This document shows positions 54,320 to 56,031 of a DNA stretch of 64,000 nucleotides, one piece after another. Source of the DNA: Mesorhizobium loti (GTDB taxonomy: Bacteria; Pseudomonadota; Alphaproteobacteria; Rhizobiales; Rhizobiaceae); the NCBI RefSeq assembly GCF_013170705.1, contig NZ_CP033334.1, positions 5,247,501 to 5,311,500 on the forward strand, given 5' to 3'. Position 1 is the stretch's first letter; every line of letters starts with the position of its first letter. The translations under genes and the position numbers were made by a program. The notes below the pieces were generated by a model. That model did no database searches and had not been told where the DNA came from. It saw nothing but the letters and a program-made list of their open reading frames with translations.

Positions 54320-54348
54320 GGGAACCTTTTTCCGGCGGGCGCATCCAA
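54320..54348 (+). promoter_or_regulatory. ECF-type promoter ahead of the sigma-factor gene
   Basis: GGGAACC at 54320-54326 and CATCCAA at 54342-54348 form a typical ECF -35/-10 pair, with 15 bases between GGAACC and CATCCAA. The same elements and spacing recur at 55091-55119, so this is probably the autoregulated promoter of the sigma gene. Confidence 0.75.
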
Positions 54349-54386
54349 CGTGCAGTCATGCGTCTGTTCGGGGAGATCCGGTCGCG

Positions 54387-55073
54387 ATGAGCAAGCTCAC
54401 AATGCCCGCCAAAATGCCGGAGGCGGCTGAAGGCCCTTCCGGCGACGTGCTGCTCGTGCAGCGCGCGCTCGCACGCGAAGCTGGCGCTTTTCGCGCTATC
54501 ATCAAGAAACATAACCAGTTGCTCTATCGGATCGCTCGCGGCGTGGTTCGCAACGACGCGGAGGCCGAGGACATCGTGCAGGAGGCCTATATGCGCGCCT
54601 TCGCCAGCCTCGGCTCCTTTCGCGGCGACTCCTCGCTCGCCACCTGGCTGTCGCGCATCGTCATCAACGAAGCGCTCGGCCGGCTGCGCAAGAGGCGGCA
54701 CACCGTGGCGATGCCCGAGAACCCGGAAGCCCAGATCATCCGCTTTCCCCTCAATCCCAGCGACGATCCGGAGCGGACCATGGCGCAGCGGCAGATTCTC
54801 GCACTTGTCGAACGGGCGACCGACAGCCTGCCCGACATCTACCGTATGGTCTTCGTGGCCCGTGTCATAGAGGGCCTGAGCATGGAGGAAACCGCCGATC
54901 TGCTTGGTGTGCGGCCAGAGACCGTCAAGACAAGGTTGCACCGTGCGCGCGCCCTGTTGCGCAAGGCGCTGGACGACGAGATCGGCCCGGTGCTGCTCGA
55001 CGCCTTCCCCTTCGCCGGCCGCCGCTGCGAGCGGCTGACCCAGTCGGTGATGAGACGCCTGGGCTTCGAATGA
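54387..55073 (+). CDS. ECF-family RNA polymerase sigma factor
   Basis: The 228-residue protein has region 2 (GVVRNDAEAEDIVQEAYMRAFASLGSFRGDSSLATWLSRIVINEALGRLRKRR) and region 4 (DIYRMVFVARVIEGLSMEETADLLGVRPETVKTRLHRARALLRKAL). After region 4 comes a short tail (VLLDAFPFAGRRCERLTQSVMRRLGFE) with one Cys. No anti-sigma gene lies next to it; DUF4142 and cupredoxin genes follow. Promoters of matching sequence precede both units, so the sigma factor probably activates itself and the two downstream genes. Confidence 0.93.
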   Translation: MSKLTMPAKMPEAAEGPSGDVLLVQRALAREAGAFRAIIKKHNQLLYRIARGVVRNDAEAEDIVQEAYMRAFASLGSFRGDSSLATWLSRIVINEALGRLRKRRHTVAMPENPEAQIIRFPLNPSDDPERTMAQRQILALVERATDSLPDIYRMVFVARVIEGLSMEETADLLGVRPETVKTRLHRARALLRKALDDEIGPVLLDAFPFAGRRCERLTQSVMRRLGFE

Positions 55074-55090
55074 TCCTGCTCTGATCTTGC

Positions 55091-55119
55091 GGGAACGTTT
55101 CTGCCGGCCGCGCATCCAA
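55091..55119 (+). promoter_or_regulatory. ECF-type promoter ahead of the DUF4142/cupredoxin pair
   Basis: GGGAACG at 55091-55097 and CATCCAA at 55113-55119 repeat the elements found at 54320-54348 with the same 15-base spacing, including GCGCATCCAA. It lies 62 bases ahead of the DUF4142 gene. Confidence 0.75.
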
Positions 55120-55180
55120 TCAGCGTCAACTGAAAAAATCGAGCCCGGCGCCTCCGCGCGGCCGGGCGAAGGAGAATGCC

Positions 55181-55705
55181 ATGCTCACCAGATATACCGC
55201 GGCCCTTGCCGCCCTGCTTCTCGTCAGCGCTGCCCCGTTCGCGCAAGCCGCCGACAAGCCGACCGACCCGCAGATCGCCCACATCGCCTATACAGCCGGC
55301 GTCCTCGACATCGAGGCGGCCAAGCAGGCGATCAAGACATCGAAGAACAAGGAGGTCGTCGCCTTCGCCAAGGATATGGAGCGCGACCACGAGGCGGTGA
55401 ACAAGCAGGCGCTCGACCTGGTCAAGAAGCTCAAGGTGAAGCCCGAGGACAACGCCACCAGCCAGGCGCTGAGCAAGGCGGCGGAGGCCGAACGCGCCAA
55501 GCTCGCCAAGCTGACGGGCGCAGAATTCGACAAGGCCTATATCGAGAATGAGGTGGCCTATCACAAGCAGGTCAACGGCGCGCTCGAAACCCTTCTCATA
55601 CCCTCGGCCAGCAATGCCGAGCTGAAGAGCCTGCTCGAGACCGGCCTCAAGATCTTCCAGGGGCATGAGCAGCACGCCGAACATGTCGCCGGCATGCTGA
55701 AATGA
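55181..55705 (+). CDS. DUF4142-domain exported protein
   Basis: The 174-residue protein has a signal peptide (LAALLLVSAAPFAQA) and a mostly helical ferritin-like DUF4142 domain: DPQIAHIAYTAGVLDIEAAKQAIKTSKNKEVVAFAKDMERDHEAVNKQAL, then EFDKAYIENEVAYHKQVNGAL and LKIFQGHEQHAEHVAGML. His and Glu on these helices could bind metal. Periplasmic DUF4142 proteins have no defined activity. AAGGAG precedes the ATG; the cupredoxin gene overlaps its stop. Confidence 0.92.
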   Translation: MLTRYTAALAALLLVSAAPFAQAADKPTDPQIAHIAYTAGVLDIEAAKQAIKTSKNKEVVAFAKDMERDHEAVNKQALDLVKKLKVKPEDNATSQALSKAAEAERAKLAKLTGAEFDKAYIENEVAYHKQVNGALETLLIPSASNAELKSLLETGLKIFQGHEQHAEHVAGMLK

Positions 55706-56031
55706 AAGCGGGCGCATTGATCCATCCGTCGTGGCTGGCCGCCGCCGCCCTGGCTCTGGTGCTTACAGCAGCGCCGGCGGCGGCCGCGACCATAGAGATC
55801 ACCATCGACAAACTCGTCTTCACGCCAGCGACCATCGAGGCGAAGGTCGGCGACACGATCGAGTGGGTGAACAAGGACGTGATTGCCCATACGGCCACCG
55901 TGAAGGGCGGCTGGGAGGTGATGATCCCGCCGAAGAAGTCGGCGAGCCTGACGTTGAAGGCGGCGGGCGCGGCCGACTATTTCTGCCGCTTCCACCCCAA
56001 CATGAGGGGTCATCTGAACGTGGCGCCCTGA
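55702..56031 (+). CDS. exported cupredoxin (plastocyanin/amicyanin-like)
   Basis: The 109-residue protein has a signal peptide (LAAAALALVLTAAPAAAA) and a single blue-copper domain. The copper ligands are visible as His in DVIAHTATV, and Cys, His and Met in YFCRFHPNMRGHL. It should carry electrons in the periplasm or buffer copper. The ATG overlaps the DUF4142 stop (ATGA), so the two are co-produced. Its 3' end overlaps the convergent enoyl-CoA hydratase gene by 22 bases. Confidence 0.92.
   Translation: MKAGALIHPSWLAAAALALVLTAAPAAAATIEITIDKLVFTPATIEAKVGDTIEWVNKDVIAHTATVKGGWEVMIPPKKSASLTLKAAGAADYFCRFHPNMRGHLNVAP

Follow-up and report, generated by a model that had tools for sequence, protein, structure and literature searches.

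The stretch of Mesorhizobium loti DNA analysed here (the window, 64,000 nucleotides, genome bases 5247501-5311500) carries between positions 54,320 and 56,031, in this order, a predicted promoter (P1), an ECF sigma factor gene, a second predicted promoter (P2) and the genes for a DUF4142 protein and a cupredoxin. The sigma gene (54387..55073, forward strand) encodes a protein of 228 aa with the Pfam domains Sigma70_r2 and r4_2 (PF04542 and PF08281), which was assigned to group ECF29 (RpoE8-like), scored 305.9 bits against the NCBIfam model NF008888 (cut-off 204) and, as expected of an ECF29 member, consists of regions 2 and 4 only, followed by a C-terminal extension. Among the named relatives the corresponding sigma factor is at most 90% identical to that of the window. 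Downstream on the same strand follow the genes for an exported DUF4142 protein of 174 aa (55181..55705; PF13628, E 1.1e-36) and an exported cupredoxin, a blue-copper protein, of 109 aa (55702..56031; Cupredoxin_1 PF13473 and PF00127), the start of the latter overlapping the DUF4142 stop by 4 bases; the cupredoxin matched the amicyanin model weakly (41 bits, cut-off 110). A gene for an HPP-CBS protein precedes the locus, and beyond its downstream end lies an enoyl-CoA hydratase gene on the other strand. A Pfam analysis that covered the sigma factor, the two partner proteins and three genes flanking the locus revealed no adjoining anti-sigma gene, which agrees with the orphan sigma factor described in an earlier note on this DNA; the cupredoxin output proposed there is supported as well.

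The ECF29 promoter predicted for the sigma gene is P1 (54320..54348, forward strand); the one predicted for the DUF4142/cupredoxin pair is P2 (55091..55119, forward strand). Both read GGGAAC-N16-CATCCAA, with TTTT after the -35 element in P1 and TTT in P2, and their -35 elements start 67 bases before the ATG of the sigma gene and 90 bases before that of the DUF4142 gene, respectively. The near-identical twin promoters reported earlier are therefore present at 54320 and 55091, but the spacing is 16 bases and not 15, the latter value being valid only if the -10 element is read as GCATCCAA. Promoters of the form GGGAAC / GCATCCAA ahead of both the sigma gene and the next gene are a feature of ECF29 membership. 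Members of ECF15 (EcfG) have a GGAAC / CGTT promoter and NepR-PhyR neighbours; here, the -10 element is CATCCAA and no such neighbours were found among the scanned genes. The perfect pattern GGAACN16CATCCAA occurs in the window only twice, namely at P1 and P2, and seven matches to the same core were obtained when up to two mismatches were allowed, about as many as in shuffled sequences (mean 5.1).

Conservation was followed in 80 named loci out of 111 related loci found, a few genomes giving two loci. Among the four window neighbours sought in these 80 loci, the exported DUF4142 protein and the cupredoxin occur almost throughout (77 and 78 loci), while the HPP gene is found in 61 and the hydratase gene in 44. 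In 99 genomes of the genus, the sigma and DUF4142 genes occur together in 77, are both lacking in 20, and a diverged sigma gene alone is present in two. The core of P2 is perfect in 73 of the 80 loci; that upstream of the sigma gene (P1) is perfect in 46 and has one mismatch in 27, two in six and three in one. Both cores are perfect in 42 loci and neither in three. In a comparison of 79 loci (window included), P1 came out worse than P2 in 32 and better in three (p 4e-7, a value that ignores relatedness). Within P1 it is usually the second or the fifth base of CATCCAA that departs, and the -35 element and the TTTTGCCGGC spacer stay conserved. To judge from these sequences, the self-promoter P1 would usually be weaker than the output promoter P2. 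As a separate observation, the TTTTGCCGGC spacer of P1 is unusually conserved (0.82 vs 0.49 in the flanks), as if it were bound by a second regulator.

The C-terminal extension after region 4 contains the motif FPFAGRRC (residues 207-214; 55005..55028, forward strand) and reads FPFAGRRCERL, with Cys 214 being the sole cysteine of the whole protein. In an alignment of the window protein with 33 others, which are 36-90% identical to it, 27 columns are invariant in all, including P208, F209, R213 and C214, so that the tail motif PFxxxRC is kept down to 36% identity and the tail cysteine pointed out in the earlier note is a conserved one. Of 40 further sequences prepared, seven were left out of this alignment, namely six complete tails with the motif and L271, the contig of which ends before the tail; for L264 no start was obtained. 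FPFAGRRC is found in 79 of the 80 related loci (of 111 found), the exception being L095, which has lost the normal C-terminus, and the tail cysteine is the sole cysteine in 69 of the 80 stretches matched, not all of which include the first residues. A structure prediction (pTM 0.52) placed a helix at residues 212-225 (pLDDT block means of 83 and 91) behind a poorly predicted link. The comparison with known structures mainly covered residues 16-206 and is for this reason silent on the position of the tail.

Tail cysteines can sense metals, as known from CorE and OrbS, in both cases by means of several cysteines. CorE and CorE2 of Myxococcus xanthus (ECF238), like the window protein, are orphan ECF sigma factors with a C-terminal extension, and CorE has a role in copper homeostasis; however, their tails are cysteine-rich and have a CXC in the linker, whereas the window sigma factor has a single cysteine in all and neither of these features. 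OrbS of Burkholderia cenocepacia (ECF243) also has no anti-sigma factor and uses C-terminal cysteines as an on-board metal sensor, but it responds to Fe(II) through four of them, and no such cluster is found in the window protein, the motif of which is different. In Table 2 of PMC8999054, ECF29 stands among the groups that have a regulatory extension whose mechanism is unstudied. PFxxxRC provides a sharply defined tail motif and, if it acts as proposed below, would enlarge the small class of sigma factors carrying their own sensor by a member with a single cysteine.

The arrangement is of an already published kind and matches the ECF29 locus of S. meliloti, which comprises rpoE8, SMb20593 for a putative protein of the outer membrane, and amcY, a blue-copper gene (PMC6180224), the linkage to an exported and a blue-copper protein being the same in the window. 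In that report, GGGAAC...GCATCCAA lies upstream of rpoE8 at a start mapped by 5'-RACE, and the motif recurs in the interval from rpoE8 to SMb20593, in which no start was detected. A second start site of rpoE8 without the motif and enhanced expression in nodules were also described, and amcY was up 2.6- and 3.2-fold in nodules of strains without rpoE8-SMb20593. Overexpression of rpoE8 by 126-fold activated no target, SMb20593 included, and the authors state that no anti-sigma candidate is known for ECF29 and call the regulation of RpoE8 a mystery (PMC6180224). The S. meliloti system thus shares with the window the three-gene order, the blue-copper output, both promoter motifs and the lack of an anti-sigma candidate. 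The locus of S. medicae WSM419 has the three genes and the upstream site, and a second exact site was not found in it.

In order to search for sites beyond the locus, the M. loti genome (6.87 Mb, one contig) was scanned with GGAACN15-18CATCCAA, which gave six matches (reversed control: none). The extended form GGAACNTTTN12CATCCAA gave three perfect matches (none reversed) and ten with up to two mismatches (three reversed). Besides P1 and P2, the third perfect site (GGAACCTTTCGCGGGCGCACCCATCCAA, G000:C1:1893891) lies 3.4 Mb from the window locus and 82 bases ahead of a PCuAC gene. Genes for DUF1775 and CopC-CopD come after the PCuAC gene, and the end of a DUF2946 gene is found shortly before the site. 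The site shares with P1 and P2 the extended -35 element (nTTT), the spacing and the -10 element, but its -35 hexamer is CGGAAC instead of GGGAAC. The three other matches of the first scan, all within frames, one of which looks NodU-like on inspection, were regarded as chance hits. A one-mismatch site at G000:C1:703575 was rejected since it overlaps with the start of a gene judged by eye to be of the LacI type. A fourth family of recurrent motifs with a CTCTCGGTCAGCC-type spacer, seen among the matches listed, was set aside as coding, which is unproved: the sites lie inside an other-strand frame of 136-410 aa in all nine loci read (at least 316 aa in seven), and the one such frame scanned gave a sub-threshold Redoxin/AhpC match. 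The same genome also contains an ECF sigma paralogue, L008 (G000:C1:1524319-1524945), with one TGA inside the matched frame.

The PCuAC gene is present in all 99 genomes of the genus, and the site ahead of it was compared, over a region of 460 bases, between 79 genomes with and 19 without the sigma gene; G068 was dropped because its contig ends there, and G030 was scanned over most of the locus, the match being the PCuAC site (L284) anyway. By the first criterion (up to one mismatch, spacing 16), the site is present in 58 of 79 genomes with and nine of 19 without the sigma gene (p 0.052); this criterion was reached in one of 1960 base-shuffled upstream regions. A perfect core at spacing 15-17, a criterion picked after the first one, is found in 54 of 79 versus four of 19 genomes (Fisher p 2.3e-4), so that the strength of the association hinges on the cut-off. 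Four genomes without the sigma gene hence keep a perfect core and 25 of the 79 with it do not have one. Mismatch counts also differ between the two sets (Mann-Whitney p 5e-5). In pairs of nearest relatives, which are the sole correction for relatedness in this comparison, the site is worse in the genome without the sigma gene in ten cases, better in two and tied in seven (p 0.039). Conservation reaches 0.94 in the core, 0.78 in the spacer and 0.59 in the flanks for 74 genomes with the sigma gene and a recognisable site, and 0.88, 0.78 and 0.60 for 14 genomes without the gene, core values being inflated by the picking of best matches.

The comparison suggests that the sigma factor also controls a distant copper-handling operon, and the Mesorhizobium copper-operon site thereby offers a candidate target outside the locus together with a copper hypothesis. 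The earlier claim that only the two downstream genes are activated is not supported because of this conserved third site and the sites in relatives ahead of Rieske/FAD reductase, GTP cyclohydrolase I and globin genes. In this respect the window genome differs from S. meliloti, for which no RpoE8 target was reported; the passages of PMC6180224 consulted also make no mention of a PCuAC-type site. A search of mostly open-access literature found no link of ECF29 to PCuAC or copper, which is not proof of absence. DUF1775 and CopC-CopD proteins are also encoded by ycnKJI of B. subtilis, which is under the repressor YcnK, without control by a sigma factor.

Co-occurrence was assessed with the strict motif GGAACNTTTN12CATCCAA in two sets of 297 genomes each, the presence of the sigma gene in the order set being called at E 1e-40. 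In the order set the motif occurs in 15 genomes, all of them among the 30 with the sigma gene, and in none of the 267 without it. In the family set it occurs in 44 genomes, 40 of which are among the 59 with the sigma gene; in two exceptions (G417 and G567) a diverged sigma gene, its product 36-39% identical, lies beside the site, and the sites in G441 and G556, with no sigma gene within the stretch read, were taken as chance. The reversed motif was found in one genome of each set. This co-occurrence is in part due to linkage, because most strict sites lie at sigma loci. The converse association is weaker, the strict motif being missing from 15 of the 30 genomes with the sigma gene in the order set and from 19 of the 59 in the family set. 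At nine of the 29 sigma loci L250-L278 no convincing looser site was found within 1.5 kb; in eight of these nine the identity of the sigma factor to the window protein is about one half or lower, and one of the nine, L274, also showed no cupredoxin. Where diverged members do have a site, a single one heads the whole operon, ordered DUF4142-cupredoxin-sigma or TTHB210-like-cupredoxin-sigma. Among the out-of-genus loci read, none had a PCuAC gene beside a strict site.

The sites, the gene linkage, the co-occurrence, the poorer distant sites in genomes without the sigma gene and the conservation of the tail are direct readings of the genomes, and from them we infer promoter use, a copper role, gating by the tail and its signal (copper or redox sensing). 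It appears moderately probable that the locus is an autoregulated ECF29 module which includes the distant PCuAC operon and is gated after translation, most likely via the C-terminal tail. The sigma factor would recognise GGGAAC(n)TTT-N12-CATCCAA, use P1 for the transcription of its own gene and P2 for that of the DUF4142/cupredoxin pair and, within the genus, also transcribe the PCuAC-DUF1775-CopC/CopD operon; as this regulon would comprise the cupredoxin pair and the PCuAC operon, its job would be to adjust the periplasmic copper-protein and copper-handling capacity. The extension with PFxxxRC would hold the sigma factor inactive until a redox or metal signal acts on it. Gating after translation is considered most likely because no anti-sigma factor is known and overexpression in S. 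meliloti was inactive; by analogy, the 126-fold overexpression without a target counts against the view that the regulon is on whenever the sigma factor is present. The same null result and the rise of amcY without rpoE8-SMb20593 were, again by analogy, counted against the gated module itself. What is new compared with the published locus are the PCuAC site, the motif-sigma co-occurrence, the invariant PFxxxRC tail and the weaker self-promoter; the added value lies in the tail motif and in the prediction of a copper-operon target, which is backed by the genome comparisons. A bolder version, in which ECF29 factors are self-sensing copper or redox sigma factors with the invariant tail cysteine as an on-board anti-sigma, the regulon comprises cupredoxins as well as a copper-acquisition operon that Mesorhizobium captured by promoter gain, and a deliberately weak P1 stops the positive loop from locking on, is regarded as doubtful.

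Alternatively, the sigma factor may control its own locus only, with the PCuAC site being used by another ECF sigma factor of overlapping specificity or by none. The CGGAAC hexamer, the perfect PCuAC cores in four of 19 genomes without the sigma gene and 14 further ECF-like matches in the M. loti genome (25-37% identity) speak for this; since the PCuAC site has the same extended -35 element, spacing and -10 element as P1 and P2, is poorer where the sigma gene is missing (more weakly so by the first criterion), and the strict motif is absent from all 267 order genomes without the gene, it is rated as unlikely. Control may also be transcriptional, another regulator switching the sigma gene on through a second start or the TTTTGCCGGC spacer, and the protein, active once made, being merely stabilised by its tail. 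The second rpoE8 start without the motif and the nodule-enhanced expression in S. meliloti, together with the conserved P1 spacer, are in keeping with such control, which is nevertheless held to be rather improbable in view of the rpoE8 overexpression that activated no target.

The sigma factor might instead be held by an unlinked anti-sigma factor or adaptor encoded elsewhere in the genome. EcfG, which is held via a partner-switching adaptor, offers a precedent, and the neighbourhood cannot speak against a partner of this kind; however, no candidate is named for any ECF29 member (PMC6180224), and of the four neighbours sought only the exported protein and the cupredoxin are near-constant, which leaves this a quite unlikely explanation. 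The gated ECF29 module is the preferred reading.

Several related loci differ from the window in their gene content. In diverged ECF29 members (L267, L271, L275, L297, L301 and others), a TTHB210-like exported protein replaces DUF4142 ahead of the cupredoxin, the name being based on Pfam for L275 and on similarity or inspection by eye for the others. A GTP cyclohydrolase I paralogue is encoded near the sigma gene in L060, L061, L068, L096, L141, L316 and L317, and has an ECF29-like site of its own in the first five of these. Rieske/FAD oxidoreductase genes with an ECF29-like site at their head were seen in L142, L144, L308 and L325, where they either diverge from the sigma gene or are located at a distance. 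Relatives also have a site-headed gene for a probable cytochrome, identified by eye, and in L290 (G289:C1:1985195) a gene for an exported globin-like protein is preceded by a perfect site that is remote from the sigma gene.
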